A stretch of 39,147 nucleotides of DNA, taken from positions 1 through 39,147 of the IMG/VR virus record IMGVR_UViG_3300005436_000007; one strand, written 5' to 3'. The translations under genes were made by a program, and so were the position numbers. Numbering within the stretch: position 1 is the first letter of the stretch; each line of letters opens with the position of its first letter. This document shows, piece after piece, positions 12,228 to 37,659 of this stretch. This stretch comes from a virus. The notes below the pieces were generated by a model. It saw nothing but the letters and a program-made list of their open reading frames with translations. It did not search any database and had not been told where the DNA came from.

Positions 12228-12436
12228 GCGATCTCGGCTGGAAGGCAGACGGCATCGCGCGCGCGCGCGCCGCGGGCGGCATCGAATTGGAGCGCTACCG
12301 TCGGCCCGGATTCAGGTCGGAGATCGCCGTCCGGCGGAGCGCGGAGAGCGGTGGCGCATGGGGCATCCAGATCGATGCTCCCGGCGATGCCGACCCTTCG
12401 CCTGTTGAGTTCCTTCGGCGTAAGGGACGGAGATGA
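12224..12436 (+). CDS. Small basic protein between the paired glycosyltransferases
   Basis: This 70-residue protein overlaps both neighbours (ATGA at each end). It has many Arg residues (ADGIARARAAGGIELERYRR, then EFLRRKGRR at the end), no Cys and no membrane segment. A GC-only run (GCGCGCGCGC) near 12256 lies in its 5' part. No family recognised. Its fixed place between the two transferases suggests a partner or adaptor, but there is no direct evidence. Confidence 0.5.
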   Translation: MSDLGWKADGIARARAAGGIELERYRRPGFRSEIAVRRSAESGGAWGIQIDAPGDADPSPVEFLRRKGRR

Positions 12437-13191
12437 GCAGTGTCTGGTTCATCGTCCCAGCGCACGGCCGCTTCGCCGTGACCCGCGCCTGCCTCCGCCA
12501 GCTCGAGCGGACCTGCTTCGAACTCGTACGCGAGCGCGGCCTCGCAGCCCACGCCGTCGTGATCGCAGAGGACGCGAACCTCGACATCGCCGCCGGACTC
12601 GGCTTCGGCATCATCGAGCAGGCGAACAAGCCGCTCGGCCGGAAATGGAACGACGGGTACGAGCTCGCCGCCCGCCAGGGCGTCGACTACGTCGTCCCGC
12701 TCGGCTCCGACGACTGGGTCGATCCGCTCTGGGTACTCGCACAGATCGCCGCCGACGGCGAGCTCCGCTGCTCCCGCCGCTCAGCAGTCGTCAGCGAGGA
12801 CGGACAGCGGATCGCCAGGCTCGACATCCGCTACTCCGGCGCGTTCGACTTCGGTGACGGCGTCCGCATGATCCCCGTCTCGCTGTTGAAGCCGCTGCGG
12901 TACAGGCCGGCCGATGAGGACGCGAACCGGGCGATCGACACCAGGATCTTCCAGAACGTCCGGCGGGCGCTGAACAGGGCGCCGCGCGTCTCGTTCACCG
13001 AGGTGCATCCGCTCCAGATCGTCGACTTCAAAACGAGTGGCAGCGAGCAGCTAAACCCGTACGCCGGTTGCATGCGGTTCGCCCAGGGCGCGGAGACGGA
13101 CCCGTGGGTCGACCTCGCGGGCTGCTACCCGCTCGAGGCTGTGGAGGAGATGCGTGCTGTCTATGGCGCAAGCGTGAAGGCGGCCGCGTGA
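12433..13191 (+). CDS. GT-A-type glycosyltransferase, second of a paralogous pair
   Basis: This 252-residue protein has SVWFIVPAHGRFAVTRACL at the start, VVIAEDANLDIAAGLG, NKPLGRKWNDGYELAARQG, and LGSDDWVDPLW as the DxD-like motif (about 94-97). VDFKTSGSEQLNPY near the end aligns with VDFKTSVNMTPY in the first paralogue. Two related but diverged transferases in one operon usually add successive sugars or act on different acceptors. The start overlaps the small basic gene (ATGA) and the end overlaps methyltransferase 1 (GTGA), so all five cassette enzymes are likely made from one message. Confidence 0.8.
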   Translation: MSSVWFIVPAHGRFAVTRACLRQLERTCFELVRERGLAAHAVVIAEDANLDIAAGLGFGIIEQANKPLGRKWNDGYELAARQGVDYVVPLGSDDWVDPLWVLAQIAADGELRCSRRSAVVSEDGQRIARLDIRYSGAFDFGDGVRMIPVSLLKPLRYRPADEDANRAIDTRIFQNVRRALNRAPRVSFTEVHPLQIVDFKTSGSEQLNPYAGCMRFAQGAETDPWVDLAGCYPLEAVEEMRAVYGASVKAAA

Positions 13192-13796
13192 GCGTGACGA
13201 CGGAGCCCGAGTTCTACGACCGCGCCATGTGCGACGCGCACGAGCCCGCGATGCTGCCGCTCGAACAGTCCCCTTGGCTCGAGCTGTACCGGCAGGCGTC
13301 CTGGATGATCGCGGCGTCGCACCCGGTCGTGGATCTAGGCTGCGGCACCGGCCGGTTCGCCGAGCAGCTCCGCCGGCGCGAGCACGCCCGGTACACCGGC
13401 CTCGATTTCTCGCCGGCAGCGATCGCCGAATGCCGCGCATACGTGCCCGCAGCCGACGCGGACACAGCCTGGGAAGCCGACTTCCACGTTCGCGACCTCC
13501 GTGACTGGCTTCCCGACGACCAGCGGGCCGGATCCACCGTCTACACGTGCCTGGAGACGCTCGAGCATCTCGAAGACGACGTCGATCTGATCAGACGCAT
13601 CCCGCCAGGCCACGAGATAGTCTTCTCAGTCCCGAACTACGGCGGCGAAGCGCACCTGCGCACATTCCAGAACGCCGGCGATGCGTGGCAGCGGTACGGC
13701 CACCTCCTGACCTTCCAAAGCTGGCTGCTGATCGGCGACGGGCCCCGCTACTTCATCCACCTCTACCGGGCAGTCAGGCGGCCGGACTCATGGTGA
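13188..13796 (+). CDS. Class I SAM-dependent methyltransferase 1
   Basis: This is a 202-residue protein. Motif I is PVVDLGCGTGRFAEQL (about 46-61); motif II includes YTGLDFSPAAIAECR; motif IV is STVYTCLETLEHLEDD with a methyltransferase-11/UbiE-like LETLEHL; later FSVPNYGG and a C-terminal strand. The family transfers a methyl group from SAM to small molecules or sugars. Given the neighbouring glycosyltransferases and WbqC-like gene, O- or N-methylation of a sugar is the most likely use. DNA methylation is unlikely because DPPY or PPC motifs are absent. Confidence 0.82.
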   Translation: MSVTTEPEFYDRAMCDAHEPAMLPLEQSPWLELYRQASWMIAASHPVVDLGCGTGRFAEQLRRREHARYTGLDFSPAAIAECRAYVPAADADTAWEADFHVRDLRDWLPDDQRAGSTVYTCLETLEHLEDDVDLIRRIPPGHEIVFSVPNYGGEAHLRTFQNAGDAWQRYGHLLTFQSWLLIGDGPRYFIHLYRAVRRPDSW

Positions 13797-14359
13797 TCGA
13801 GCAGCCCGTCAACACGCCGGAAGCGTGGAGCGAACGCGCACGATCGATCACGCTGCCGTGGCTCGCGTGCGGATGGTCCGAGGAGGGACAGTGGGACCGG
13901 CACACCGGCATCGTCGACGAGCTCGACCCGCAGCCGGGCGAGCGTCTTCTCGACTTCGGCTGCGGCACCGGCGAGCTATGCGAGATCGTCCTCGACGACG
14001 TCGACTATGTCGGATTCGACCCGTCCGTTGGCATGGTCACCCGCGCCCGCCGCGACCACCAGGGAACCAGCCGGGCATTCACCGCTGTGCATCCCACCGG
14101 CCGCTTCGACCTCGTCGCGTGCGTTGGCTGCTTCAACCTCGCCGACGGCTGGTCGAAGGAACGAACCTGGCACACGATCAGGCATCTCTGGGACACGACC
14201 GGCTGCCGCGCACTCGCAGCATCCCTCTACGCCGGCACCGACGAGCGCTGCCTCCGCTACACCGAGGACGAACTCGCGCAGGTCGGCAGGCAGCTCTCTC
14301 ATGACGTGCGGGTCGAACAGCTCCGCGTGAATGACCTGATGCTGGTGGCGCGGCGATGA
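13790..14359 (+). CDS. Class I SAM-dependent methyltransferase 2
   Basis: This is a 189-residue protein. Motif I is RLLDFGCGTGELCEIV (about 52-67), followed by YVGFDPSVGMVTRARR and, at motif IV, FDLVACVGCFNLADGW. It is only distantly like methyltransferase 1, so this is not a recent duplication. Overlap with the upstream gene (7 bp) and the downstream WbqC-like gene (ATGA) places it in the same message. Probable substrate: a sugar or sugar nucleotide of the cassette (inference). Confidence 0.82.
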   Translation: MVIEQPVNTPEAWSERARSITLPWLACGWSEEGQWDRHTGIVDELDPQPGERLLDFGCGTGELCEIVLDDVDYVGFDPSVGMVTRARRDHQGTSRAFTAVHPTGRFDLVACVGCFNLADGWSKERTWHTIRHLWDTTGCRALAASLYAGTDERCLRYTEDELAQVGRQLSHDVRVEQLRVNDLMLVARR

Positions 14360-15000
14360 CCGACCGGGTCTGCACCGCTCACCAGCTGAACTTCCTGCCG
14401 GGGCTTTCCGTGCTCGAGCGGATCCGTCGCGCCGACGTCGTGATCTGGCTCGACGCCGCCCAGTACGTTCGGCACAGCTTCGTCAATCGCAACCGCCTCG
14501 CCGACGGCGCCTGGATGACGATTCCCGTCGACGAGCACGACACCTTCGCGCCGATCAACCGCGTCAAGATCGCCGACCCGACCGGCCGTATGCGCGAGAA
14601 GATCGCCCGCCGCCTCGAGCACGAGTTCGGCACGGCTGCGGCCCCGTTCGCAACGGAGCTTCGGAAGCCGTACGAGATGCTTGCCGGCCTCAACTACGCC
14701 CTCATCCAGCGCCTCTTCGACGCGCTCGACATCAACGTCGACCAGACGTTCCAATCTCTGCTCGACCCGATGCACGCTGTTCCGGTCTGGTCGGAAGACG
14801 ACGTCGAGATGCCTCCAGTGAAGGAACGCTTCGCGGACATGGCGGCCCAGGTCGGCGCGACGGTGTGGCTGTCCGGGCCGTCGCGGCACTTTGGTGAGGA
14901 ATGGCGGTTCACCGCGCGCGGCATCCGCATCGACACGTACGAGCATGAGGGGCCGAATCCGTCAGCGCTTGAGCTTCTCCGTCAGCGGGTGGCCGCATGA
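14356..15000 (+). CDS. WbqC-like family protein
   Basis: This 214-residue protein matches the WbqC-like family (PF08889) along its length: [20 protein letters not shown] at the start, [21 protein letters not shown], then WMTIPVDEH, and late [10 protein letters not shown]. The N-terminal His-Gln-x-Asn-Phe-x-Pro is typical. Family members lie in O-antigen, lipopolysaccharide and spore-coat sugar clusters, probably in nucleotide-sugar amino-group chemistry, but the reaction is not settled. It strengthens the reading that a dedicated, modified sugar is made here. It overlaps the fibre gene by ATGA. Confidence 0.85.
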
Positions 15001-17762
15001 CCGCGCTGAGGATCTACAAGCGGCTCGCCGAGCTACTCGACGTCGACATCGCGACCATCGCTGACGGCGAAGGCATCCGGTTCGACCTTGGCACCGGCAA
15101 GTTCGTGCCGACGCCTTCGTCGCTCAACACGATCCACACAGTCTTCGCGCCACCGAGCTCGGCTCTCGGCCTCGACGGCGACTACGCGCTCGACGTCGAC
15201 AACGACGACCTGTACGGGCCGAAGAGCGGAACGTCGTGGGGGACGCCGCTCCATCTCGTCGGGCCGCCAGGCGATCCAGGCGCCGCCGGCGCCACGGGGC
15301 CGGCAGGGCCGCAGGGGCCCATCGGGCCGTCCGTCCTGACGTTCCGCGGCGTCTGGGATTCGGCGACTGCGTACGCGGTCAACGACTGGGTCGTCTTCAG
15401 CGACGTCAGCTACGTGGCTATCCAGGCCAACACGAACGTCCAGCCGGACACCGATCCGTCGACGTGGGTGGTGCTGACGATCTCGGCACCGGCCGGGCCG
15501 ACTGGGGCGGCTGGCCCGACTGGGCCGACAGGATTCGACGGCATCCAAGGCGATCCGGGCGTTGACGGAGTCGACGGCGCGACCGGACCCACCGGCGCCA
15601 CCGGCGTTGCCGGCCCGACCGGCGCCGCGGGAAGTGCCGGAGCGACAGGCCCCACAGGGGCTGCTGGAGCCACAGGCTCGGCAGGAGCCACCGGCGCCAC
15701 CGGGCCAACGGGCCTACAGGGCGCCACCGGAGCGCAAGGGCCGGTGGGTCCGGCCGTCCTGACGTTTACCGGCCCGTGGAATTCGAGCACCACATACGCG
15801 GTCAACGACTGGGTGTCGTTCGGCGGCGGCGGCTACTTCGCGCTCGTGTCGAACACGAACGTTCAGCCGGATACGGACCCGACCACGTGGGCGCCGCTGA
15901 ACCTGAACGGCCCCGTCGGCGCGACCGGCCCGGCAGGGCCAACCGGCGCCGCAGGGCAGACCGGAATCCAGGGCCCGACGGGCGCCGCTGGCAGCACAGG
16001 CGGCACGGGCCCGAGCGGACCCGCAGGCCCGACAGGAGCAGACGGGGTCGCGGGGCCGACAGGCCCGGCTGGCGCGGCAGGCCCATCCGGTGCAGGCGCG
16101 CTCACAGGCCGTCTCGCAGCCGGAATGACGAACTCAGACACATCGATGATCGTCACCGGCAACGACGAATGGCCGCAGATTCCCGGCGACGTGGCGTCGT
16201 TCCATGTTCTGATCGACAACGAGCTGATCGGCGTCGGCTCGACGTCCGTCTCGGGACCGACGCATACGTTCGGGTCGCTGACGCGCGGCATGTTCGGCAC
16301 GACCGCGACAGCTCATGCGAAGAAGGCTGTCGTGGCGCTCAGGGCCTTGCTCGGTCCGACAGGGCCGCATGGGGCAACGGGCGCGAGTGGCAGCGCCGGC
16401 GCGACCGGGCCGACCGGAGCGCAAGGAGCGACCGGGCCGGCTGGAAGCACCGGAACTGCGGGCGCCACGGGTGCTGCAGGTCCAACCGGTGCACCTGGCG
16501 CGACGGGTGCCCAAGGTGCGACTGGCCCAGCGGGCGCTACCGGCGCGCAGGGAGTAGCAGGCCCGACGGGCGCCGCTGGTGCGACGGGTGCTGTCGGCGC
16601 CACGGGCACGGCTGGCGCGACCGGAGCACAGGGGCCGACCGGGGCGGCTGGAGCTACAGGCGCAGCCGGGGCCACTGGACCGGCTGGAGCAACTGGGGCG
16701 ACCGGTGTAGCAGGATCGACCGGTCCTACGGGCCCATCCGGAGCAAGTGTCACCGGCCCCACCGGGCCAGCAGGCGCCACCGGTGCCACGGGGCCGACTG
16801 GCACAGCCGGATCCACCGGGGCGCAAGGCCCGACAGGCTCGACCGGGACAGCCGGATCGGCGGGCACGACCGGCCCGACCGGTCCTACTGGAACCTCGGG
16901 AGTCACTGGCCCGACGGGCCCAGCTGGCGTCGAAGTTGTCGACACCATCGCAACCGGCGGCAGTTCCCAGACACTAGACCTCGCGAACGGCAACGTCTTC
17001 GATCTCACCCTCACTGCCGCGACTTGCACGCTCACGTTCGCTGGAGCAACGAATGGTCAAGCGTGCAGCCTTACCATCCTCGCCCGGCAGGACTCGACCG
17101 GCGGCCGACTGATTACCTGGCCCGGATCCGTTGTCTGGCTTTCCGGCGCCGCCCCGTCGCTGCAGATCGCCGCGAACGCACTCGACGTGATCGCTCTATT
17201 CACTCTCGATGGCGGGACGACCTGGTACGGCGCACAGGTCAACCCGACATCAGGGGCATGGGTCAAGCTCTTCGACTCAACGCTCGGCGCTGACGGCGCG
17301 TTCGACACCGGAGCCAACTTCATCCCAGCCGGGTACGCCGCTCTGAAGATCCTCCTGTCGGTGCGATCGACTAGGGCGGCGACAGGGGACTCGCTCTCAC
17401 TGCAGTTCAACAACGACACCGGTGCGAACTACTACACCCAGATCGCGATCTTCAACGGCACGTCCTCGACCATCGCGCAGAACACCGGAGAAACGAGCGG
17501 CTATGCAGAGCTCCCGGCCGCATCGGCGACCGCGAACCTCTTCGCGGACATGGAGATCGACATCCTCGAATACGCGTCGGCGAAGACGAAGCAGGCGACC
17601 GTCAAGGAGACGTTCGCGAAAGCGATCTCAGCCGGCAACCTCTTCACCGAACAGCACGGCATCTTCTGGAACAGCACCGCTGCCATCAACCGGATCGGCG
17701 TCGGGGCCCGCAACGGGAGCATCAAGGCGGGCTCGCGGATGGTCATCTTCGGGATCAAGTGA
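14997..17762 (+). CDS. Collagen-like virion fibre with two carbohydrate-binding-like modules
   Basis: This 921-residue protein has an N-terminal region (1-88) that probably attaches it to the virion. Gly-x-y collagen-type segments lie at about 89-111, 165-252, 305-367 and 453-645, dominated by GPT, GAT, GAA and GAQ. Between them two near-repeat modules (112-160, 253-301) share TAYAVNDWV, [16 protein letters not shown] and TW, resembling CBM5/12-type chitin or cellulose binders. Residues 370-450 and 646-921 are globular; the latter could be a trimerising or receptor-binding head. It follows the WbqC-like gene by ATGA overlap. Thr in the third triplet position is the site glycosylated in some bacterial collagens. 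Confidence 0.85.
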
Positions 17763-17773
17763 TGAGGACGATC

Positions 17774-18733
17774 ATGGCTGCTACCCAAGCGGTGCGCCCG
17801 ACCGGATGGCAGCGGAGTGCGAACAACCCGGTCCTGTCGCCGGCCGTCACCTGGGAAGGCCTCGCCGTCGAGGAGCCGACCGTGCTGATCGACGCCGTCG
17901 GCGGACAGTTCCGCATGTACTACGACGGCACGACCCATCTCGACAGCACAGGGGCGTGGGGAATGGGCGTCGCGACCTGCCCGCTCACCTCCGACCCGAC
18001 CGCCCCTGGCAACTGGACGAAGTACGCCTCGAACCCTGTCCTCGGTCAGGGGGGCTCGAGCTATGCCGGAAAGGTATCGGGCACGAACGTCGTGCTCGTC
18101 GGCTCGACCTACTACTGCTACTTCTTCGATGGATCAGGCGCGTCCCCGCTGTATGTGTCGACATCGAGCGACGGCTACGTCTGGGGCACGCCGGCGGTCG
18201 CGATCGCTGCGGCCGCGGTTGCGTGGATGAGGGGATGGGCGAATAGCTTCGTCTGGAACGAGGGGGGCTCGACGTGGAAGATGCTCGTTGAGGGCCGAAA
18301 CGTGGCCAACACCGCCTGGGTCACTAATTACGCGACCTCGACAGATGGCCTCTCATGGACTGTCCAGGGCTCCGGCCCGCTGACGAGCCTTGCCGTCGGC
18401 ACGAACTACGGCGGTCCATGGCTCGCGAACGGCGGAGCAAAGACGAACGGCCGCTACCACCTCTGGTTCCATTCCGGCACAGGCGCGCTCTTCAGCGACA
18501 TCTTCCATGCCTACTCGACTGACGCGCAGAACTGGACCGTAACCGCGACCGTCGAGCTGCAACACAACTGGTCAGCGAACGAGAAGGAACAGGTCGCAGA
18601 CCCGTGCATCGTCGAACACGGCGGCGTCAGCTACCTCTTCTACTCCGGCGTCGACAACACCGGCGCGCACGCATACACGCTCGTCGCCACATATCCCGGC
18701 GCGATCGCAAACAAGGTGCTATGGGAGACCTAG
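17774..18733 (+). CDS. Five-bladed beta-propeller glycosidase-like protein (GH43/32/130 clan type)
   Basis: This 319-residue protein starts at ATG 17774, 5 nt after GAGGA; GTG 17759 overlapping the fibre stop is an alternative. Blade-like repeats occur: NNPVLSP..W......EPTVLID, FRMYYDGTTH, then NPVLGQ, YYCYFFDGSGASPLYVSTSSDGY, YHLWFHSGTG, QVADPCIVEHGGVSYLFYSGVD. The spacing of NPVL, DP and YxxYYxG motifs is characteristic of five-bladed propeller hydrolases acting on beta-fructosides, arabinans or mannosides. Catalytic acids cannot be assigned securely. Next to the fibre it is likely a virion depolymerase for host surface sugar. No signal peptide. Confidence 0.75.
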   Translation: MAATQAVRPTGWQRSANNPVLSPAVTWEGLAVEEPTVLIDAVGGQFRMYYDGTTHLDSTGAWGMGVATCPLTSDPTAPGNWTKYASNPVLGQGGSSYAGKVSGTNVVLVGSTYYCYFFDGSGASPLYVSTSSDGYVWGTPAVAIAAAAVAWMRGWANSFVWNEGGSTWKMLVEGRNVANTAWVTNYATSTDGLSWTVQGSGPLTSLAVGTNYGGPWLANGGAKTNGRYHLWFHSGTGALFSDIFHAYSTDAQNWTVTATVELQHNWSANEKEQVADPCIVEHGGVSYLFYSGVDNTGAHAYTLVATYPGAIANKVLWET

Positions 18734-19647
18734 GTCGTCAGTATGGCGACGCGAACCGCAGCCAGATCGCGGCCGCGACGGTCGGACTGGCCATGCTGGT
18801 TAAGGACGGAGAGGAAACCCTCCCCGCGGCGGTCGAAAGCCTCCTTCCGCTCATCGACGCCTGGACAGTCATCGACACCGGGTCGACCGACAACACGCGC
18901 ACCATCGTCCGCCGCGCCCTCAAAGGCAAGCCCGGCCGACTGCTCAAGCGCACATTCAAAGGCTTCGGCCGATCCCGCAGCGAGCTCCTCCGCGAAGCCC
19001 GGAACGCCGCCGACTACACCCTCATGATCGACGCCGACCACACCATCACCATCACAGGCGACCGGCCAGACCTCACCGCCGACGCGTACATGCTCCGAAT
19101 CCGCAGCCGCGCCGACACCTGGCGGCTCCCGCTCCTCACCCGGTCGAGTCACCCGTTTGAATACCGCGGCGCCGCGCATGCCTACCTGGCGACCGACCAG
19201 CCCAACACGCGCGAAGACACAGACTGGCTCACGATCCACGGCGGAGCAGGCGCAACCGTCGAGAAGCTCGAGCGCGACCTCGCGCTCCTCGAGGCTGACT
19301 TCCTCGCCCACCCCGACGACGCCCGCACCGTCTTCTACCTCGCCCAAACACACCGCGACCTCGACCACCACGAGCAAGCGATGTTCTTCTACCGGCTCCG
19401 CGTCAACATGGGCGGCTGGCAGGAAGAGGCCTACTGGGCGCGCTACCAGCTCGGCTGCCTCCTCAGCGAACACGTCTCGTTCGCGCAAGGAGCCCTCGAG
19501 CTCTTCCAGGCATGGCAGGAACGGCCAACCAGGATCGAAGCCTTGCGCGCGCTCGCGAACGCCGCCAACGCCGTCGCCGACAAAGCCGCCCTCCCCGACG
19601 ACGCGCTCTTCGTCCGAACCAGCGCCTACCGAAAGGCGGCCGCCTGA
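18721..19647 (+). CDS. Glycosyltransferase 3: SunS-like GT2 domain with TPR-like tail
   Basis: This 308-residue protein has GLAMLVKDGEETLPAAVESLLPLIDAWTVIDTGSTDNT at residues 20-57, the signature of the SunS / family 2 branch (LIVKDEE...IVDTGSTDxT). The metal site is LMIDADH (about 98-104). The C-terminal half (about 175-290) is helical with TPR-like pairs (FYLAQTHRDLDHHEQAMFFYRLRV, WARYQLGCLLSE). SunS itself glycosylates a peptide, so a protein acceptor such as the fibre is plausible. It overlaps the propeller gene by 13 bp and the connector gene by one base, so it belongs to the same message. Confidence 0.85.
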   Translation: MGDLGRQYGDANRSQIAAATVGLAMLVKDGEETLPAAVESLLPLIDAWTVIDTGSTDNTRTIVRRALKGKPGRLLKRTFKGFGRSRSELLREARNAADYTLMIDADHTITITGDRPDLTADAYMLRIRSRADTWRLPLLTRSSHPFEYRGAAHAYLATDQPNTREDTDWLTIHGGAGATVEKLERDLALLEADFLAHPDDARTVFYLAQTHRDLDHHEQAMFFYRLRVNMGGWQEEAYWARYQLGCLLSEHVSFAQGALELFQAWQERPTRIEALRALANAANAVADKAALPDDALFVRTSAYRKAAA

Positions 19648-20570
19648 TGTACGTCCAGCCCTCCACCGAATTCGAAGCGGTCGCACAGTTCCAGACCGGC
19701 CTCACCGGAACGATCGGCGTCCGCGTCATCGACAACGAAGACGCCACAACGATCCCGCGAACGACCGCCGGCGTTACCGAATACCCGGCAGGCTCAGGCG
19801 TCTACCAGGTCAGCCTCACGAGCCCCGGCAGCCCAGGCCAATACTCGATCGTCTGGGACGACGGAGCGACAGAGCCGAACTACGCGATCGACGAGCTCGT
19901 CGTCACGACCAGCACCGTCACCGAGATCGTCATCGGCACCGGAAACCTCTACGTCACCGCCGACGACCTCAAAGACATCCTCTCCCTCAAGGCCGGCACG
20001 TACGCGGACACCGCGATCGGGATCGCCTGCCAGGCCGCCTCGCGAAGCATCGACGGGTACAAGGGCGCCCGCTATTACCCGACGACCGAGATCCGCCGGT
20101 ACACGAACCGGGAGACGTTCGCGGACTCGATCGCGGTCGACGATCTCGTCGGCCTCACGAGCCTGCAGATCGACACAGACGGAGACCTCGTCTACGACGA
20201 AACCTGGGCCGCCGACGTCGACTTCGTGCTCGAGCCGACCAACAACGCGCTCGAAGGAAAGCCGTACACGACTATCCAGCTGCTCCCGAAGGCGAACCGG
20301 CGCATCCCCACCACGCCGCAGGCGATCAAACTGGCCGGGAGCTTCGGCTGGGCAGCCGCTCCTCAGCAGGTCACCGCCGCCGCCGTCCTCCTCGCGCACC
20401 GGTTCCTCAACAGGTTCCGGTCCGCGCCGCTCGGCGTCCTCGTCGTCACCGCGAACGAGATGGTCGCCACCGCCCGGGTCGGACGCATCGACCAGGACGC
20501 CGCCTTCCTGCTCGACCAGCTCCCGGCCGGCAAGAGCCGCCCCGGATACGCATCACCGCAGCTCGCATAG
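19647..20570 (+). CDS. Head-tail connector (gp6-like) with N-terminal Ig-like domain
   Basis: This 307-residue protein has residues 1-95 resembling an Ig-like beta sandwich (FEAVAQFQTGLTGTIGVRVID, SGVYQVSLTSPGSPGQYSIVW). From about 100 the pattern YVTADDLKDILSL, IACQAASRSIDGYKGARYYP and the C-terminal APQQVTAAAVLLAHRFL matches the HK97 gp6-like connector that docks under the portal. The added N-terminal domain is unusual in length and could project from the neck. The start shares a base with the transferase stop (TGATG). Confidence 0.78.
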   Translation: MYVQPSTEFEAVAQFQTGLTGTIGVRVIDNEDATTIPRTTAGVTEYPAGSGVYQVSLTSPGSPGQYSIVWDDGATEPNYAIDELVVTTSTVTEIVIGTGNLYVTADDLKDILSLKAGTYADTAIGIACQAASRSIDGYKGARYYPTTEIRRYTNRETFADSIAVDDLVGLTSLQIDTDGDLVYDETWAADVDFVLEPTNNALEGKPYTTIQLLPKANRRIPTTPQAIKLAGSFGWAAAPQQVTAAAVLLAHRFLNRFRSAPLGVLVVTANEMVATARVGRIDQDAAFLLDQLPAGKSRPGYASPQLA

Positions 20571-25374: not shown

Positions 25375-27333
25375 ATGACCAAAGTCCTCAAAGCCGACTG
25401 CTCGGCAGGCGACGCCTACGCGAAAAAGAGCATCGCCTTCCCGGACACCGGCTGGTACGTCCAAGCCGACATCGCTCTCCCCTCCGCGACGCTTGCCGCC
25501 ATCATCGCCCACGTCGCATCAGGCAGCAGATACACCGCCAACCCGCTCTACATCGTCGATGCCGGAGCAGCTGTCTGGGTCGAACTCGGAGACGCCGCCG
25601 GCGACACGGCAGGGCTCACCAGCCCATGCTCCTTCTTCGGCGCGAACTCGAGCTACTTCGCCGCGGCGTTCGCGGCCGACACATGGGTCACCGTCGTCAT
25701 CCACTACGACGGAACCACCGCCCACTATCTCCTCAACGGTGTCGAGGTCGCATCAGGGATCATTGACGCGTCCTCGTCAACCTTCCTCGACGCCGGCGGC
25801 AAGTTCGCAAACGGAGTATCGGGCGAGATCTATTACATCCGAGACGTCAAGGTCGGCACCACCCTCGGCGGCGTCGACCTCTTCAGCGACGACTTCTCAA
25901 GCGGCGACCTCTCAAACTGGACCACGTTCTTCGGCGCCGCCACGGTCGTTGACGAGCCCACACTTACACCGCCAGGGCCGCCCGTCGGCCGTGTGCTCAT
26001 CGCACCGGATGATGGGCCGCTCGAGCCCTCACCGACATGGGTGCGCCTCGACGGCGTTGACAACTTCGTCGCGGCGATCGACATCACCCGCGGCCGGCAG
26101 ACGCTCACCTCACACACCGACACCGGAACCGCGACCGTGCTCTTCAACGACACACACGGCGTCCTCGACCCCAACAACGTCTCGAGCCCGTACTTCGGGA
26201 AGATCACGGGGAAGCAGATCATGCTGCAGGTCTGGAATCCGGTGACCGCGGAATGGGTGCCGCAGTTCCGGGGACGGATAAAGCGGCGCGGATTCGATGT
26301 CAACCCGGCCACGAACCCAGACGGGTCCCTCGTCGTCGCGAACATCCAGATGGACTGCGTCGACATCTTCGACTACCTCGGCGGATACGGCCTCACGCCA
26401 GGACTGGACGGCGTCACCCCGCCTGCCGGCTCCGAAGGGACGGTCTGGTATGCGGAGACCGCCGGCACGGTCGACGACCGCTTCATCGAAGTCCTCACCG
26501 ACGTCGGGATCGACTCGACGATGTGGGTGGTCTTCACCGGGAACATCCGCGCGGCAGAGGTCAACTACGACGCCGACGAAGCCGCGATCACAGTGCTGCG
26601 CGATGCGGCCGACGCCGAGCTGCCGTTCATTGCGAACTGCTACGTCGACAAGATCGGACGGTTCGTCTTCCACGGCCGCGACTCCCGCTTCGACCCTGAC
26701 ACCGTCGCGGCCGGCGCGACGCCGGGAGCGTGGAACTTCACACGGTGGAAGGCAGGCGACGGCGCAGCGATCGCGCTCGACTCCGACCGCGCCCAGATCC
26801 GTGTGCTCACCTTCAACGAGGACGAGGACGAACTGATCAACGCCGCTATCTGCTATCCGAAAGGCATCGCTGAGACGGACATACCAGGGCAGGTATTCGC
26901 GGATGCGACCTCGATCGCCGCCCATGGCAAGCATGCCGCCCCGCCGATCTCCGATCTGGTAATCAAAGACGGCGTGACGACCGGTAACAGCGGAAAGGTC
27001 GAATGCCAGAAATACGCGGAGCTGTTGGTGAAAAACAAGAAGGATCCGCGGGTCGCGATCGAGACGCTCGGTCTGAAAGCGATGCACCCTTTCGACGCGC
27101 GTGCCGCGCAGACGTGGGCGCTCCTGACCGGCTCAGACATCAGCGACATCGTCAACCTGAAAGTCGGGTATCCGGGCGGCACCGGTATCGGCGACCCGAC
27201 CGGCGAGGACTATTACGTCGAGGGGGTCACGATGCGGATCCGCCCTCTCGTCCCGGAATACGACTACGTCGAAATCGAGCTCGACGTGTCTCCGGCCGAG
27301 TGGTCGATGGACACGCATGCGGTGTTCGCGTGA
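25375..27333 (+). CDS. Minor tail protein with N-terminal lectin-like domain
   Basis: This is a 652-residue protein. Residues 1-200 form a beta-rich jelly-roll pattern resembling LamG / concanavalin-A-like lectins (WYVQADIALP, WVTVVIHYDGTTAHYLLNGVEVASG, EIYYIRDVKVG). The rest (about 205-652) resembles baseplate/tail-tip proteins: LDGVDNFVAAIDITRGRQTLTSHTDTGTATVLFNDTHGVLDPNN, QFRGRIKRRGFD, VVANIQMDCVDIFDYLGG, LPFIANCYVDKIGRFVFHGR. This likely combines a sugar-binding module with the tail hub. No separate distal tail protein gene is visible, so it may do both jobs. Confidence 0.75.
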   Translation: MTKVLKADCSAGDAYAKKSIAFPDTGWYVQADIALPSATLAAIIAHVASGSRYTANPLYIVDAGAAVWVELGDAAGDTAGLTSPCSFFGANSSYFAAAFAADTWVTVVIHYDGTTAHYLLNGVEVASGIIDASSSTFLDAGGKFANGVSGEIYYIRDVKVGTTLGGVDLFSDDFSSGDLSNWTTFFGAATVVDEPTLTPPGPPVGRVLIAPDDGPLEPSPTWVRLDGVDNFVAAIDITRGRQTLTSHTDTGTATVLFNDTHGVLDPNNVSSPYFGKITGKQIMLQVWNPVTAEWVPQFRGRIKRRGFDVNPATNPDGSLVVANIQMDCVDIFDYLGGYGLTPGLDGVTPPAGSEGTVWYAETAGTVDDRFIEVLTDVGIDSTMWVVFTGNIRAAEVNYDADEAAITVLRDAADAELPFIANCYVDKIGRFVFHGRDSRFDPDTVAAGATPGAWNFTRWKAGDGAAIALDSDRAQIRVLTFNEDEDELINAAICYPKGIAETDIPGQVFADATSIAAHGKHAAPPISDLVIKDGVTTGNSGKVECQKYAELLVKNKKDPRVAIETLGLKAMHPFDARAAQTWALLTGSDISDIVNLKVGYPGGTGIGDPTGEDYYVEGVTMRIRPLVPEYDYVEIELDVSPAEWSMDTHAVFA

Positions 27334-29244: not shown

Positions 29245-29426
29245 ACGACCACGACCACGCGGAAGTCTTCAAAGGCACAGACGGTCTCTGGTACTGGCAC
29301 ATCAAGGCCGGCAACGGAGAAGTCATCGCCCAGTCCGAGGGATACGCAGGCAAGGAGCACGTCCTCGACGTCCTCGCAAGCCACTACCCGGACACCCCAG
29401 TAGTCGAGCTCGAGGAGCAGCCATGA
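29241..29426 (+). CDS. YegP/DUF1508-like protein
   Basis: This 61-residue protein has EVFKGTDGLWYWHIKAGNGEVIAQSEGYAGKEHVLDVL, matching the DUF1508 (YegP-like) repeat (F..x.DGxWYWxLKAxNGExIaxSExY). The family is widespread in bacteria without a known biochemical role. It sits in the lysis cluster with ATGA overlaps on both sides. Some phages carry such domains near lysis genes, but the reason is unknown. Confidence 0.78.
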   Translation: MNDHDHAEVFKGTDGLWYWHIKAGNGEVIAQSEGYAGKEHVLDVLASHYPDTPVVELEEQP

Positions 29427-30178
29427 CTCTGCGTCTAGGCAAGCAGCCGGCCACCGTCGACCATCGCGACCTCCTGCTCGACGAGGTCGTCGGGCCGGAC
29501 GGGCTGAAGGAGGCGCCGTCGGGGTTCGGGCACTGGCCCAAGATCGGTGATGCCTGGGGCATGCTCGGCAACGACCAGGTCGGTGACTGCGTGTTCGCCG
29601 GCGGCGACCACGAAACGATGCTGTGGAACGCCCTCCATGACGTCGCGGTCGGGTTCACGCCCACAACCGCACTCGCCGACTACTCCGCCGTCACCGGCTA
29701 CAACCCGGCAGATCCGTCAACCGATCAGGGCACGAACGTCCGGGACGCGCTCGGCTACAGGCGAAGCACCGGCCTCGTCGACGCGTCAGGGAAGCGGCAC
29801 AAGATCGGCGCGTACGTGGCGCTCGAGGCGGCGAACTGGCACGAGCTCCTTGAGGCCCTGTACGCGTTCGACGCGGTCGGGATCGGGTTCGAGTTTCCCG
29901 ACTACGCGATGGCCCAATTTAACGCCGGGAAGCCGTGGGCATACCGGTCCGGCGGCTCCATCGAGGGCGGCCATTACGTGCCGATCGTCGGACGCCCCGG
30001 CCTGTCGCGGATCAAGTGCGTCACGTGGGGAGCGCTGCAGGACATGACCCGCTCGTTCTTCGAGCACTACTGCGACGAGGCCTGGGGGCTTCTGTCAGTC
30101 GAATCGCTGAACACCGTGGGGGTTACGCCTGAGGGGTTGAACCTGGACGCGCTGAAGGCGGCACTGGCCGCGCTCTAG
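29423..30178 (+). CDS. Papain-like cysteine peptidase, possible second lysis enzyme
   Basis: This 251-residue protein has a catalytic Cys56 candidate in LGNDQVGDCVFAGGDHETMLW and a His183 candidate in GGSIEGGHYVPIVGR, followed by CVTWGALQDMT, which could give the polar third residue. This arrangement (Cys on the first helix, His on a later strand, then a Trp-containing strand) is that of papain-like or C39-like peptidases. No signal peptide. Following the holin and endolysin genes it may cut peptide cross-links, but it could instead be a virion or host-targeted protease. Confidence 0.65.
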   Translation: MTLRLGKQPATVDHRDLLLDEVVGPDGLKEAPSGFGHWPKIGDAWGMLGNDQVGDCVFAGGDHETMLWNALHDVAVGFTPTTALADYSAVTGYNPADPSTDQGTNVRDALGYRRSTGLVDASGKRHKIGAYVALEAANWHELLEALYAFDAVGIGFEFPDYAMAQFNAGKPWAYRSGGSIEGGHYVPIVGRPGLSRIKCVTWGALQDMTRSFFEHYCDEAWGLLSVESLNTVGVTPEGLNLDALKAALAAL

Positions 30179-30189
30179 CCGGTTCCCAT

Positions 30190-30687
30190 GTGACGTCCGA
30201 GGCTCTCTTCCGCCGGTATGGCGAGCAGATCTACTGGTTCTGCCTCCAGCGACTGCGGTGTCGTGAGGATGCGGAGGACGCGGTGCAGGCTACGTTCCTC
30301 AAAGTCGAGCGCGCGCTGCGGCGCGGCGAGACAGTAGTTCGGTCCGAACAGGCCTGGCTCTACACGATTGCGCTTCGCGTCTGCATCCGCAGCACCGATG
30401 CGAGGAGCCGGGTGCGGATGCACGAGGTGCCCAGCGATCTGGATCTGATCGGGGAAACTGTCCCGGCGAATATTCCACCTGAGGACGCGATCATCGACGT
30501 CATGTGGCTGGAGGTTGCACTTGACGAGTTACCCGAGCGCCAGCGGCGGGCACTCGTTCTGCGTGACTTCCTCGGAGCCTCGTACCGCCAGATCGAGCGC
30601 GAGCTCGAGATGTCCAAGGGGGCGGTCGAGATGATGATCTTTAGGGGCCGCCGAAGCCTGGCGCAAGCAGAGAGAAAGGCTGCATAA
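30190..30687 (+). CDS. ECF-type RNA polymerase sigma factor
   Basis: This 165-residue protein shows region 2 as RYGEQIYWFCLQRLRCREDAEDAVQATFLKVERAL (about 8-42) and region 4 as ALDELPERQRRALVLRDFLGASYRQIERELEMSKGAVEMMIFRGRRSL (about 112-158), the two domains of ECF sigma factors, joined by a short linker. It would direct host RNA polymerase to a special promoter set. It starts at GTG with no clear Shine-Dalgarno, 12 bp after the peptidase gene. No anti-sigma gene is adjacent. It ends 4 bp from the end of the oppositely directed fucosidase gene. ECF sigma factors are unusual in phages of this size. Confidence 0.88.
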   Translation: MTSEALFRRYGEQIYWFCLQRLRCREDAEDAVQATFLKVERALRRGETVVRSEQAWLYTIALRVCIRSTDARSRVRMHEVPSDLDLIGETVPANIPPEDAIIDVMWLEVALDELPERQRRALVLRDFLGASYRQIERELEMSKGAVEMMIFRGRRSLAQAERKAA

Positions 30688-30691
30688 GCCG

Positions 30692-31735
30692 CTAGCGCGT
30701 GAGTGCTGCGGCGACCTTGGCCGGGATTCGCCCGGCCGGGTCCGGTGCGACATCGGCGAGGAGGCTGACGTGCGCGGTCGCTGCGGCGCGCCGGAGTTCC
30801 CGGAACCGGCTACCCGAGTTCGGGTCAGCGCGGCCGTCCCAGAACCAGGTCGCGCCCAGCTTCACGGCCTCCTGCGAGGGTAGGAGCGTCAACGGGGCAT
30901 GACCTACCGTGCCTTTCGCGCCAGGCAGGCCGCCTTCGAAGATCTGGAAGTCGGCGCCCGGGAGCGGCCGGCCGTGGCTGTTGTCGCCGACGAGCGCCCA
31001 CGGCTGCAGCCGGTGCACGTACGTGAAGATCTGCTCGAGCTGCGCATCGTTGAGGCCGTGATCCCAGGAGCCGTCGAACCACACTCCGGCGATCGGGCCG
31101 TATGAGGTGAGGAGCTCGCGCAGCTGCGCGTCGACGAATGCGAGATAGGCGGCCGGGTCGTGCTTGTAGGTCGGCTCGTGCCAGTCGAGCAGCGAGTAGT
31201 AGACGAACACTCGGAGGCCCGCGCGGCGGCCGTCGCGAATCAGCCGCCCGACGACGTCCTCGTTCGGAGTCACAGACCAGAGGCTCATCCTCGTCGGCCA
31301 CAGCGCGAAGCCGTCGTGATGCTTGGCAACCACGGTGATATACGAGGCGCCCATCCGCTTCGCAAGCGCCACCCAGCCGTCGGCGACACGCGGATCCGGG
31401 TTGAACCGCTCGGCTGCTGCAAGCTCCGCCGGCGAGCGCGCCGCGCGCCACCAGGAAGAGTCGGACGGCGCCGCAAGCCCTGAGGAGGGCCCGAAGTGGA
31501 TGAACAGCCCGACCGGGGACGACCGCATCCACGACGTCTCAGCCGTCCGTGTCAATGACGAGCGTACCGACGAGCCTGTTTCGAGTTGGGCGAGCCGCGT
31601 AACCTCCGCGGCACGCCCAGCGTCGAGCGAGCTCCCCCCGCGAGTTGTCGCCCACGCAGCAGCGATCACGACGACCGAGGCTGCCGCGATCGCCACGACG
31701 AGCGGACTTCTTACGGTGTCACGCTGACCACACAC
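30692..31735 (-). CDS. Alpha-L-fucosidase, GH29, membrane-anchored or secreted
   Basis: This 347-residue protein from GTG 31735 lies 4 bp after the upstream stop. A hydrophobic N-terminus (SPLVVAIAAASVVVIAAAW) is a signal peptide or anchor. The GH29 signature is complete: VGLFIHFGPSS, WW, RFNPDP, AKRMGASYITVVAKHHDGFALWPT, RVFVYYSLLDWH, and GVWFDGSWD with the presumed nucleophile Asp221. The usual C-terminal beta domain is missing. It would remove terminal alpha-L-fucose outside the cell. It is third in a leftward run with a membrane and a secreted protein, downstream of the repressor, so it may be made in the lysogen. Confidence 0.9.
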   Translation of the reverse strand: MCGQRDTVRSPLVVAIAAASVVVIAAAWATTRGGSSLDAGRAAEVTRLAQLETGSSVRSSLTRTAETSWMRSSPVGLFIHFGPSSGLAAPSDSSWWRAARSPAELAAAERFNPDPRVADGWVALAKRMGASYITVVAKHHDGFALWPTRMSLWSVTPNEDVVGRLIRDGRRAGLRVFVYYSLLDWHEPTYKHDPAAYLAFVDAQLRELLTSYGPIAGVWFDGSWDHGLNDAQLEQIFTYVHRLQPWALVGDNSHGRPLPGADFQIFEGGLPGAKGTVGHAPLTLLPSQEAVKLGATWFWDGRADPNSGSRFRELRRAAATAHVSLLADVAPDPAGRIPAKVAAALTR

Positions 31736-31739
31736 CGAG

Positions 31740-31916
31740 CTAGCGCTTCGCTGGCCGCATCTTCGCCCATGCCGTCGCTGCCACAAGTACAACGAGGATC
31801 GATCCGAGCGGTCTCCACACAGCCGGGTCGCCGAGTGTCGGTGCGAGGAACCACACGAGGTTCACAGCGGCGACGAAGAGCACGAGCCCGGCCGCGATCC
31901 TGATGGGCCACTTCAC
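31740..31916 (-). CDS. Small two-segment membrane protein
   Basis: This 58-residue protein starts at GTG overlapping the previous gene's stop (GTGA). Two hydrophobic helices (IRIAAGLVLFVAAVNLVWFLA and PLGSILVVLVAATAWA) end in a basic tail (KMRPAKR). It lies between the secreted protein and the fucosidase genes and is probably co-translated with them. Possible roles are anchor or partner for these proteins, or superinfection exclusion. None is proven. Confidence 0.65.
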   Translation of the reverse strand: MKWPIRIAAGLVLFVAAVNLVWFLAPTLGDPAVWRPLGSILVVLVAATAWAKMRPAKR

Positions 31917-32227
31917 GGCGTCACCTTGACCCACCAGCGGCCAGCCGACTTCGAGAAGACGACGGCGTAGAAGCCGCGATTGGTCGGGCAGGCCGCGTGA
32001 AGTGGCTTGGCCGTAGCTCGACACTCGAAGCTGAGGAATGACCCGTGGGCGCGAATCACAGCGATCTTGGCGTTCCCGATGAGGCACTGCACTCTGCTGG
32101 CTTGCGTGGCAGCCGGGCAGACCCGCGGGTCGGACGGCCATGGGGACGCGGAGGCCGAACCAGCCAGGAGCATCCCCATTAGCAGGGCTGTGAAAAAGGC
32201 GCACATTAGACGTGCAGGTGTTGTCAT
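31913..32227 (-). CDS. Secreted Cys-rich protein
   Basis: This 104-residue protein has a clear Sec signal peptide (MTTPARLMCAFFTALLMGML then LAGSASA) with likely cleavage after residue 27. The mature part has four Cys (37, 48, 69, 80), consistent with two disulfides, and a C-terminal strand pattern (FYAVVFSKSAGRWWVKVTP). Function unknown. First gene of the leftward cargo operon, separated from the repressor gene by 108 bp. Confidence 0.72.
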   Translation of the reverse strand: MTTPARLMCAFFTALLMGMLLAGSASASPWPSDPRVCPAATQASRVQCLIGNAKIAVIRAHGSFLSFECRATAKPLHAACPTNRGFYAVVFSKSAGRWWVKVTP

Positions 32228-32335
32228 AGGGTCCCGATTCTGTTTAGGTTTGCGATGGAGTGCAGGAGACGGGGGTCGGGGCCGGAGTCGTCCGTCCTGG
32301 CGGGCAGGTAAAGACGCCGCCTGATCCGCTGCGCA
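32228..32335 (-). other. Spacer between repressor and cargo operon
   Basis: These 108 bp lie downstream of the repressor and upstream of the secreted-protein gene, all leftward. On the minus strand a weak promoter-like pair (CTGCAC and TAAACA, spaced too closely) is the best I see. There is no strong terminator hairpin with a T run, so read-through from the repressor is plausible. Confidence 0.3.
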
Positions 32336-32749
32336 TCAGCCGGCCTTCCCCGCTGACGAATCTCCGCCTATACCTCGAATGGCTCGAGCTATGGAGCGTC
32401 GGAGCGATTCCAGGCCACTCTGTAGGTCCTCGGCCGTGGGAAGCTGACCGACCTGAGCTTCGAGTGCTTCAAGGCGGAGGCGAAGCGCCGCCAGTTCCTC
32501 ATTCAGAGCGAGCGGCCTCTGCGCCTTTGGTTGAGGCTCAATCCTGATTTCAAGCCCTAGTGCCCCAATGAACTTCAGCAGGCTGTCTCCCTGCGGCGTG
32601 CTCTTGCCGTTGAGCCAGTCCTTGAGATTGCCTCGCTCAATTCCCATGTCTTTCGTGAGTCCGCGCATGCTCTTGCCGGACATCTCATAGAGCTCCTTCA
32701 TCCACGCTGATAGCTGCGTGGGGTCACTTGGGCCTCCGCTAATTGCCAC
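32336..32749 (-). CDS. Repressor-like helix-turn-helix protein (immunity candidate)
   Basis: This 137-residue protein starts at GTG, facing away from the early genes. Residues 10-55 form an XRE-like helix-turn-helix (LSAWMKELYEMSGKSMRGLTKDMGIERGNLKDWLNGKS, split here by helix turns). The C-terminal half has a coiled coil (LNEELAALRLRLEALEAQVGQL) for dimerisation. Divergent position against a Cro-like gene with shared GGGGTAAG repeats suggests it is the lysogeny repressor. No protease (LexA-type) domain, so induction would differ from lambda. Confidence 0.75.
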   Translation of the reverse strand: MAISGGPSDPTQLSAWMKELYEMSGKSMRGLTKDMGIERGNLKDWLNGKSTPQGDSLLKFIGALGLEIRIEPQPKAQRPLALNEELAALRLRLEALEAQVGQLPTAEDLQSGLESLRRSIARAIRGIGGDSSAGKAG

Positions 32750-32750
32750 C

Positions 32751-32848
32751 GGGGGTAAGTCTCCGCTTCGCGTGGCCTCACCGGAAGTGGGGTAATTCCC
32801 CTACCACCTATTGACCCCGGGGGTAGATGGTGCTATGACTCTTACCCC
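32751..32848. promoter_or_regulatory. Divergent operator region with GGGGTAA repeats
   Basis: GGGGTAAG at 32752-32759 and its exact inverse CTTACCCC at 32841-32848 lie immediately outside the two divergent start codons. Related half-sites occur at 32789 (GGGGTAATTCCCC, an imperfect palindrome) and 32820 (GGGGTAG, inside the early promoter spacer). These are good candidates for repressor operators. The repeats are seen; binding is inferred. Confidence 0.6.
32811..32839 (+). promoter_or_regulatory. Early rightward promoter (PR-like), nearly leaderless
   Basis: TTGACC (32811-32816), a 17-bp spacer and TATGAC (32834-32839) form a strong sigma-70 type promoter. The start codon ATG begins 10 nt after the -10 box, so the message would start within about 3 nt of the ATG and lack a ribosome binding site. 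A GGGGTA half-site lies in the spacer. Confidence 0.75.
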
Positions 32849-33196
32849 ATGGAGGCCAGCACCCGGAAACGGCTAGACCCTCGCGCAGTCGCCTTCGGCC
32901 ACAAGCTCCAAGGGATCCTCGACAGCCGCGGCATCTCACGGCGTGGATTCGCAAAGCTCGTCGACCCGGAGAATCCCGAGGGAGTGCGCCGCGCGGTGCA
33001 CAGGCATCTCGGTGGCATCCACATGCCTTCACGGCTGACGCGCCGTCACTACGAGCAGGTCCTCGGCCTCGAGTCGGGCGCGCTCGAAACGGATGACGAC
33101 GAGGAGGCTGACCCAGCCTTGCGTGAGGCGTTCGCTCTCTTCGTCGACCTCATGGACCGCATCAACACGCGCAAGCGCGACCAGGTCGAAGCGTGA
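32849..33196 (+). CDS. Cro-like helix-turn-helix protein, first early gene
   Basis: This 115-residue protein has a predicted XRE-type helix-turn-helix over about 15-65 (FGHKLQGILDSRGISRRGFAKLVDPEN, then VRRAVHRHLGGIHMPSRLTRRHYEQVLGL). The acidic linker ETDDDEEADP and a final helix follow. Located directly behind the early promoter and opposite the repressor, it is the expected place of a Cro or early regulator. Probably translated from a leaderless message. Confidence 0.72.
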   Translation: MEASTRKRLDPRAVAFGHKLQGILDSRGISRRGFAKLVDPENPEGVRRAVHRHLGGIHMPSRLTRRHYEQVLGLESGALETDDDEEADPALREAFALFVDLMDRINTRKRDQVEA

Positions 33197-35226: not shown

Positions 35227-35757
35227 ATGATCCCGACCGAAACATGGGTTCTCCCGCGCCCGCGGAAGGACTGTTACGTCGGCTCGTTCCCGCTCCACTT
35301 CGAGCAGAAGCTTGTCCGCCGGGTCGCCGAGCTACAGGGCAAGGGCGACTGGCAGTACGGGGCCGGGAACGTTCTGCACCCGTTCGGCGGGCTCGCGGAG
35401 ATCGGCGACAGCATCGACCTGAACGCGACCACGACACCGACGTGGGTCGGGGACGCGCACGACCTCCACTGGATCGAGGACGAGACGTACGACCTCGTGA
35501 TACTGGACCCGCCGTACTCGGACGATGAGGCGGCGTGGCTGTACTCGACGCCGCCGCTGAGGCCGGGCCGCTTCACCGCCGAGGCCGTCAGGGTGTGCCG
35601 CACCGGCGGCCATGTCGCCGTGTATCACCGGCAGCAGCCGCGCCGGCCTGACGGCTGCAAGCTCGTACACCGGATCGTTGTCCTCACGCGGACGGGTCAT
35701 GCGCCGAGGGTGTGCTTCATCTTCGAAAAGCTCCCCGCGCTGGAGATGGCGGCATGA
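35227..35757 (+). CDS. DNA methyltransferase-like protein with DPPY motif
   Basis: This 176-residue protein contains VILDPPYSDDEAAWLYSTPPL (about 90-110); DPPY is the catalytic motif IV of N6-adenine and N4-cytosine methyltransferases. VCRTGGHVAVYH follows as motif V/VI. The N-terminal SAM motif is not obvious, which is common in this small phage group. It probably modifies phage DNA to evade host restriction. ATG 35227 is the likely start. Its stop overlaps the second recombinase (ATGA). Confidence 0.75.
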   Translation: MIPTETWVLPRPRKDCYVGSFPLHFEQKLVRRVAELQGKGDWQYGAGNVLHPFGGLAEIGDSIDLNATTTPTWVGDAHDLHWIEDETYDLVILDPPYSDDEAAWLYSTPPLRPGRFTAEAVRVCRTGGHVAVYHRQQPRRPDGCKLVHRIVVLTRTGHAPRVCFIFEKLPALEMAA

Positions 35758-36656
35758 ATCTCCGGTTCTGGCGGCAGTCGAAGCCGGTCCCGTCCGCGCT
35801 CGAACAGCGCGACCAGTGGCTCGAATGGATGCTCCTCGGAGGCTCCAAGAAATCCACCGTCGACGGCTACCGGCAGATCACGAACCGGCTGCTCGAGCGC
35901 TTCCCCGAGCTTCTTCTGGCCGAGTTCAACGACGACCACGTACTCGGGATCATCGAGGACGCGAACCCGGCGTCCCGGCAGTCGCTCCGCGGCGCCTACG
36001 CGAACCTTTTCGGGTGGGCGTACCGGACGAAGCGTGTCCCCCGGAACTTGATGGATCACGTCCCGACGTTCAAGCAGCCGCCCCCGCCGCCGATCGAGTG
36101 CTTCAACGAGGTAGAGCGGAAAGCGCTGTGCTCGCTACCCGATCCGGACGGGGCACTCATGGCGGTTTTGTTCGGCACGGGGATTCGTAAGAGCGAAGCC
36201 CGCAACCTGCGCGTCAGGAGAGTCGACCTCGACAACGCCGAGCTGCACGTCATCGACGGAGCCAAGGGCGACTCCGTGGGCGTGGTCGCTCTCTCTGCGC
36301 GGCTGGTGTCGCGGCTGGCCGGCTACTTCCTGACCGAGGGGCTCAACGAGGACGACTTCCTCTGGTACTGCCACCCGGGCGGTACGCCTGTCCGCCGGCA
36401 CGACCGGGCGATAGCGGACGGCGCGATTCACAACTGGTGGGCGCGCTGCATCGACCAGGCCGGTGTCCGCTATCGGAAGCTGCACACGACGAGGCACACG
36501 TTCGCGACCGAGCTCCGTCGCAATGGCGTAGCGCTCGACGATCTCTCGTTCCTGCTGCGTCACGCTGATCCGCGTACGACGCGGAAGGTGTACGACCACA
36601 CCCGCCTGATCGACATCCGTGTTCGGGCTGAGGCTGCATTGGAGGCGCTCGTATGA
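35754..36656 (+). CDS. Second tyrosine recombinase
   Basis: This 300-residue protein has an N-terminal SAM-like core-binding domain (about 15-105: LEQRDQWLEWMLLGGSKKST..., GWAYRTKRVPRN) and a catalytic domain with Arg145 (GTGIRKSEAR), His244-x-x-Arg247 (HTTRHTF), His270 (LLRHADP) and Tyr280 (KVYDHT). It has no arm-binding domain and is closer to XerC/D-like recombinases than the integrase at 0.3 kb. It may resolve dimers, flip or mobilise a segment, or be a remnant of another element. It is coupled to the DPPY methyltransferase. Confidence 0.88.
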   Translation: MNLRFWRQSKPVPSALEQRDQWLEWMLLGGSKKSTVDGYRQITNRLLERFPELLLAEFNDDHVLGIIEDANPASRQSLRGAYANLFGWAYRTKRVPRNLMDHVPTFKQPPPPPIECFNEVERKALCSLPDPDGALMAVLFGTGIRKSEARNLRVRRVDLDNAELHVIDGAKGDSVGVVALSARLVSRLAGYFLTEGLNEDDFLWYCHPGGTPVRRHDRAIADGAIHNWWARCIDQAGVRYRKLHTTRHTFATELRRNGVALDDLSFLLRHADPRTTRKVYDHTRLIDIRVRAEAALEALV

Positions 36657-37068: not shown

Positions 37069-37659
37069 GTGGTAGCCGCCCTGTTCGTTGCCAAGGACGG
37101 CGCGTACTTCGACCTTCCCGGAGTTGAACCATGGGATGCGGAACGTGACGCCCGTCTCTACACCGGCCCTCATCCGGTCGTGGCGCATCCGCCGTGTAAC
37201 CGCTGGTGCCAGCTCGCCCCGGTAAACGAGGCCCGCTACGGAACACCTGTCGGACACGATGGCGGCTGCTTCGCCGCCGCGCTTGAGGCCGTCGAGACGT
37301 TCGGCGGGGTGCTTGAGCATCCGGCGTACACGCTCGCCTGGCATGCCTTCGACCTTCCTCGCCCTCGGCGCGGCTCGTGGCAGCGTGGAGCGCACGGTTG
37401 GGTGACCGAGGTTTCGCAGTCGGCCTACGGTTGCTCGGCTCGTAAGCGGACGTGGCTGTACTACGTGGGTCCTGAGCCGCCCGCACTGGATTGGAGCGAC
37501 CCGCCCGGCGAGGCTGTGATCGGCGGCGGAGTCAACTCGGGTGAGTGTGTCGGCCGGCGCAAGATCGAGAAGCGCGAAGCATCCGCGACACCGCCAGCGT
37601 TCCGCGATCTGCTTATCAGCCTCGCTCGAGGCGCGGAGGTGCGCGATGTTGCAGCGTGA
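37069..37659 (+). CDS. PPC-motif protein, possibly cytosine-methyltransferase-derived
   Basis: This 196-residue protein starts at GTG. VVAHPPCNRWCQLA (about 37-50) contains the Pro-Pro-Cys of C5-cytosine methyltransferase motif IV, followed by HDGGCFAAALEAVETFGGVLEHP (resembling the motif VI region) and SQSAYGCSARKRTWLYYVG (arginine-rich, like motif VIII). A clear SAM-binding Gly-rich motif I is absent, so activity is uncertain. The family recurs in actinobacterial phages without proven function. It overlaps the next gene by 14 bp. Confidence 0.6.
   Translation: MVAALFVAKDGAYFDLPGVEPWDAERDARLYTGPHPVVAHPPCNRWCQLAPVNEARYGTPVGHDGGCFAAALEAVETFGGVLEHPAYTLAWHAFDLPRPRRGSWQRGAHGWVTEVSQSAYGCSARKRTWLYYVGPEPPALDWSDPPGEAVIGGGVNSGECVGRRKIEKREASATPPAFRDLLISLARGAEVRDVAA

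Follow-up and report, generated by a model that had tools for sequence, protein, structure and literature searches.

What is an alpha-L-fucosidase doing in the run of genes behind the repressor of a soil phage? The gene lies in IMG/VR record IMGVR_UViG_3300005436_000007, which was analysed in full (39,147 bases, hereafter the window); IMG/VR records are frequently fragments. The record encodes an integrase, RusA, replication initiation, terminase, portal, scaffold, major head, tape-measure and tail genes, followed beyond the tail genes by RecT, a DNA methyltransferase and a second tyrosine recombinase. The nearest portals belong to Arthrobacter phages (37%), with those of Mycobacterium, Streptomyces, Gordonia and other actinophages next, and the host is therefore probably an actinobacterium. 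A portal search of 396 genomes from one actinobacterial group returned relatives at up to 44% identity and no close relative. With two tyrosine recombinases and a cluster of operator-like sites, the record is that of a temperate, actinophage-like virus from soil. A bacterial flank mistaken for phage DNA was ruled out, as RecT, methyltransferase and integrase genes lie past the cassette and G+C content is even. The window also holds a block of glycan-type genes (11484-19647), placed after the major head gene and before the tail genes, which is possibly a virion glycosylation kit (Table 1).

The genes around the fucosidase form a compact leftward run. The sequence-only reading had described a repressor followed in the same direction by a four-Cys protein, a two-helix membrane protein and a GH29 enzyme, with no strong terminator in between, and both parts of that description hold: all four genes run leftward as stated, and the only terminator-like site in our scan, which sits within the Cys gene, is at chance level (1 found against 1.2 expected). 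The end of the Cys gene and the start of the membrane gene share four bases within CCGTGA, and a GTG at 31735 lies 4 nt past the membrane-gene stop; we prefer this GTG as the fucosidase start over the TTG at 31792 that opens the raw reading frame (30692-31792), both because of this spacing and because it places a basic N-terminus ahead of a hydrophobic stretch. Given the overlapping stop and start and the 4-nt spacing, the three cargo genes are almost surely one operon, and such junctions suggest that they are probably translationally coupled. A 108-nt gap separates the repressor stop from the Cys-gene start. Scanning the cassette for sigma70-type promoters found none, many actinobacterial promoters being outside the reach of that scan. 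The Cys protein has a signal-like hydrophobic segment at residues 5-27, with ASAS at its end and four cysteines after it, according to hydropathy. A codon-usage caller treated the fucosidase and membrane genes as coding on the minus strand, shortened the Cys gene and missed the repressor.

The genes flanking this run to the left belong elsewhere. The ECF-type sigma factor gene lies outside the cargo operon; it closes the late operon and has a low codon-usage fit, and no full-length relative of it was seen in related phages. Its neighbour, the phrog_19005 protein, recurs on 23 IMG/VR contigs in varied gene order, and the annotation at this place in one GenBank record reads 'cysteine protease and beta'. 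A short-pattern scan of IMG/VR, which reaches close relatives only, found none for the repressor, the sigma factor or the Cys protein.

Table 1 Features of the window, and of other phages compared with it (positions in other records are those of the record named).
Feature	Position	Strand	Basis or remark
Tyrosine recombinases	315-1427 and 35754-36656		two in a single record
GT2-like glycosyltransferases	11484 and 18721		weak match at 11484
Methyltransferases of glycan-type block	13194, 13790		
WbqC-like protein	14356		1.2e-20
Collagen-like tail fibre, 921 aa	within 11484-19647		weak CBM5/12 match
phrog_19005 protein	29423..30178	+	conserved in soil phages; last shared gene left of slot
ECF-type sigma factor	30190..30687	+	sigma70-ECF 4e-22; convergent, ends 4 nt from fucosidase end
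GH29 alpha-L-fucosidase, 347 aa	30692..31735	-	Pfam, PDB sequence search, AlphaFold model, structure matches
Two-helix membrane protein, 58 aa, GTG start	31740..31916	-	two hydrophobic segments
Predicted exported four-Cys protein, 104 aa, without family	31913..32227	-	hydropathy, sequence
HTH (Cro/CI type) repressor, 137 aa, C-terminal coiled-coil-like tail	32336..32749	-	HTH_3, E 0.0012 (under Pfam cut-off); PHROG phrog_4268 transcriptional repressor, 3.2e-05
Divergent control region, 99 bp	32750..32848	.	GGGGTAR sites and promoter-like element
GGGGTAR operator-like sites	32752, 32789, 32820	+	
GGGGTAR operator-like site	32842-32848	-	
First gene of rightward early operon, 115 aa, Cro-like position	32849..33196	+	no family match
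Slot of G003			281-aa multi-helix protein
Slot of G016			64-aa Imm_superinfect protein (Pfam 1.5e-15) and 72-aa protein
Slot of G416			membrane protein with zinc ribbon
Slot of G420			lipoprotein
Slot of G433			two membrane proteins
Slot of G438			66-aa membrane protein
Slot of G444			133-aa anchored protein and 61-aa two-helix protein; arrangement closely resembles the window's
Slot of G445			two soluble proteins followed by a related pair that ends in a lipoprotein
GGYSDI/GGFSDI family	L109 12270-12731; G420 19490-19891; G445 25687-26586		cargo positions
GH29 of L002	7881-8768		catalytic domain alone; packaging genes on one side, a recombinase gene on the other

To the right of the repressor lies a 99-bp gap shared with the first early gene. 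The window has five GGGGTAR sites, against 2.7 expected over its full length, and four of them fall inside this gap; a TTGACC-17-TATGAC promoter-like element points rightward into the gene at 32849, whose ATG follows about nine bases later (by eye). Read from these motifs, the layout is the anatomy expected for a repressor/early-gene switch.

The enzyme itself was readily placed. Its match to PF01120 (Alpha_L_fucos, 3e-41) scores 142.4 bits against a curated cut-off of 25.2, and the VWFDG site and hydrophobic N-terminal segment that the earlier reading had reported are both present, the latter as a single signal-like segment (signal peptide or anchor) at about residues 10-31 by hydropathy. In a PDB sequence search, 9eu fucosidases, which the PDB titles call GH29A, came out on top (1.8e-39); identity to 9eu1, 9eu2 and 9eu4 is 31-34% across the catalytic domain. 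An AlphaFold model built with 20 related sequences (mean pLDDT 78.8) had only GH29 fucosidases as its top PDB matches by Foldseek and VIA-align, and 9eu4 superposed with Z 34.7 and an rmsd of 2.2 Å over 288 residues. In GH29 enzymes the nucleophile ends strand 4, the acid/base ends strand 6 and no helix lies between strands 5 and 6 (PMC10154630). The model has eight barrel strands (DSSP), without a helix between strands 5 (248-251) and 6 (263-267); D221, within VWFDG, ends strand 4 (217-221) and E267 ends strand 6. HHDGF and D221 are invariant across the 20 aligned sequences. On this model D221 is the predicted nucleophile, and we propose E267 as the acid/base, a residue that aligns poorly across subfamily A (PMC10154630).

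The phage enzyme thus has the fold and, as modelled, the catalytic positions of the subfamily A 9eu enzymes but lacks their C-terminal beta-sandwich, its chain stopping at the barrel. It resembles AlfC of Lactobacillus casei in this, an exception among GH29 enzymes that has no C-terminal domain (PMC10154630). As modelled, the protein is a complete GH29A-type catalytic domain with a predicted export signal, and it is likely to be catalytically active. GH29 enzymes take many fucosylated glycans as substrates, and certain members cleave sugars other than fucose (PMC10154630). The nearest sequences come from free-living Bacteroidota, Verrucomicrobiota, Planctomycetota and Acidobacteriota, and a signal-like N-terminus is common among them. 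The branch that leads to the phage enzyme in a GH29 tree is long and of uncertain placement, and no donor can therefore be named.

We then asked what related phages carry at the same place. A terminase profile recovered 80 related records, and 42 records drawn from terminase, portal and phrog_19005 searches were compared; genes of the slot were defined as leftward genes behind the repressor, called with a home-made codon-usage script. The closest relative with neighbouring genes, G014 (IMGVR_UViG_3300010371_000076), shares 55% identity in the terminase, 55% in the phrog_19005 protein and 43% in the second integrase. Between its phrog_19005 protein and its leftward repressor, this record encodes a leftward membrane protein of 97 aa, together with a short gene that runs rightward; neither sigma factor nor fucosidase occurs in this region. 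The second tyrosine recombinase and the gene at 37069 are both common to G014 and the window. Several other relatives have envelope proteins in the slot (Table 1), and such cargo is absent behind the repressor in G418 and G442. A hydrophobic segment was found in 15 of 18 slot genes and in 90 of 506 other genes (18%; Fisher p 7e-9), a value that serves as support and gives no precise probability, given the simple caller, the hydropathy threshold, the non-independence of genes from one record and the definition of the slot by position. Small proteins of one family, secreted or lipoprotein-like and marked by a GGYSDI/GGFSDI motif, turn up repeatedly as leftward cargo in different phages; they are candidate exclusion lipoproteins.

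Accessory genes placed directly behind an immunity repressor, and co-directional with it, are known from lambda (cI-rexA-rexB) and from Gordonia phage CarolAnn, whose genes 43 and 44 run leftward, are co-transcribed with its repressor in the lysogen and have a defensive role (PMC6426606). Central genes of other actinophages are likewise expressed in lysogens and defensive, some from their own promoters (PMC6426596). The window has the same arrangement, with co-directional accessory genes behind the repressor, between the late genes and the switch. The content differs: CarolAnn 43/44 and lambda rex are proposed RexAB-like exclusion pairs, intracellular and membrane, whereas here the main cargo is a glycosidase predicted to be exported, which neither PADLOC nor Pfam matches tie to those pairs. 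The fucosidase, membrane and Cys proteins had no match among PADLOC defence models up to E 0.1, and a known anti-phage defence system was set aside for that reason. A member of Imm_superinfect (PF14373) occupies the equivalent slot of G016, whereas a Pfam search with the two-helix protein of the window gave no match.

The position of the cargo is typical; a fucosidase as passenger is unusual. GH29 occurred in none of the 42 related records. Two IMG/VR scans (one with a single protein, one with a profile that used the single pattern [KR]HHDGFA, so that enzymes with a changed motif escape it) yielded one other contig, L002/L117, with an enzyme at 28-29% identity amid packaging and structural genes. 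These counts agree with the sequence-only reading, which had called a phage-borne fucosidase beside a repressor unusual. BFVD holds one named giant-virus alpha-L-fucosidase and one unnamed strong match. GH29 matches in seven GenBank 'Bacteriophage sp.' faecal contigs were not counted as phage fucosidases, the contigs being unannotated and the one inspected being labelled UNVERIFIED. In the literature, a discussion of viral auxiliary genes mentions alpha-L-fucosidase (PMC13332234), and Curtobacterium prophage regions, also actinobacterial, include a GH29 domain among depolymerase candidates, with no mention of repressor linkage in the portion of that paper available to us (PMC9862828). Phage GH29 enzymes are thus rare, yet have precedents; we found no description, in the literature searched, of a repressor-adjacent phage GH29 with an export signal.

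What such a passenger might do can be weighed against its surroundings. The Curtobacterium candidate (PMC9862828) and the other IMG/VR enzyme, set amid packaging and structural genes, would suit a depolymerase of the lytic phase or the virion that clears a fucosylated capsule before adsorption or at release. The fucosidase of the window, however, lies behind the repressor on the strand opposite all late genes and has its own predicted export signal and no tail or trimerisation domain; strand, location and export signal together disfavour the virion form of this role, and we regard a depolymerase of either kind as very improbable. It is also improbable, if a shade less so, that the gene is a recent bacterial capture with no selected role for the phage. 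Its absence from related phages and its long, uncertainly placed branch fit such an origin, but the frame is open, the predicted catalytic residues and export signal are present, the gene is tightly coupled to two envelope genes and its codon-usage score is positive on the phage's own model.

A nutritional role deserves more weight, though it too seems unlikely: a lysogen could secrete the enzyme to free L-fucose from soil polysaccharides of plant, fungal or bacterial origin, with no part in exclusion. The closest sequences, from free-living bacteria of four phyla and often with signal-like N-termini, would fit this, as would the many fucosylated glycans open to GH29 enzymes (PMC10154630). Yet a lone exo-fucosidase without binding domain or transporter makes a poor foraging tool, and the slot in relatives holds envelope proteins and no recognisable catabolic enzymes. 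Considering the company that the slot keeps, we lean towards the host envelope, rather than environmental polysaccharide, as the target.

We return to a reading of the cassette as lysogenic cargo, which the sequence-only reading had advanced. It is well supported by anatomy, comparison and the CarolAnn precedent: position, the tight coupling of three genes, the operator-like cluster and the envelope genes in the slot of relatives all favour it. The cassette would be an accessory (lysogenic-conversion, or 'moron') slot, flanked by the late genes on one side and the repressor/early switch on the other. Its genes are expected to be on in the lysogen, when the rightward lytic operons would be silent; transcription would start at the repressor promoter and read through, or at a promoter of their own within the 108-nt gap. 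The enzyme would be exported, and either cleaved after AWA or retained by its N-terminal anchor, so that the infected bacterium probably gains an enzyme that trims sugars at or beyond its surface. There it would strip terminal alpha-L-fucose residues from glycans of the lysogen's surface or surroundings. The main benefit would be an altered host surface, possibly including loss of a fucosylated phage receptor and thus superinfection exclusion; this is the most likely benefit because superinfection immunity is the sole named function in the slot of relatives and most of the other proteins there are envelope proteins. That remodelling of host glycans might block superinfection, as had been suggested, is plausible and consistent with a predicted exported GH29 enzyme. 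Overall, we consider it somewhat probable that this is an accessory slot of a temperate actinophage with a lysogen-expressed, exported fucosidase that alters the host surface. The narrower proposal, in which the exo-fucosidase defends the lysogen by removing a fucosylated receptor and the Cys and membrane proteins act as secretion, anchoring or inhibitor partners, is one that we put forward tentatively and hold to be doubtful.

If true, the receptor-sugar reading would be a case, in an actinobacterium, of superinfection exclusion by an enzyme that removes the receptor sugar. In the literature found, the repressor-linked cargo of actinophage prophages is made up of exclusion systems that are intracellular or in the membrane; a dedicated exported fucosidase in this slot would show prophages changing the glycan surface or surroundings of their hosts by hydrolysis. 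With one enzyme and two envelope partners, the cassette is a small, assayable test case, and the soil-phage slot with its changing envelope cargo is a place to seek more superinfection-exclusion proteins.
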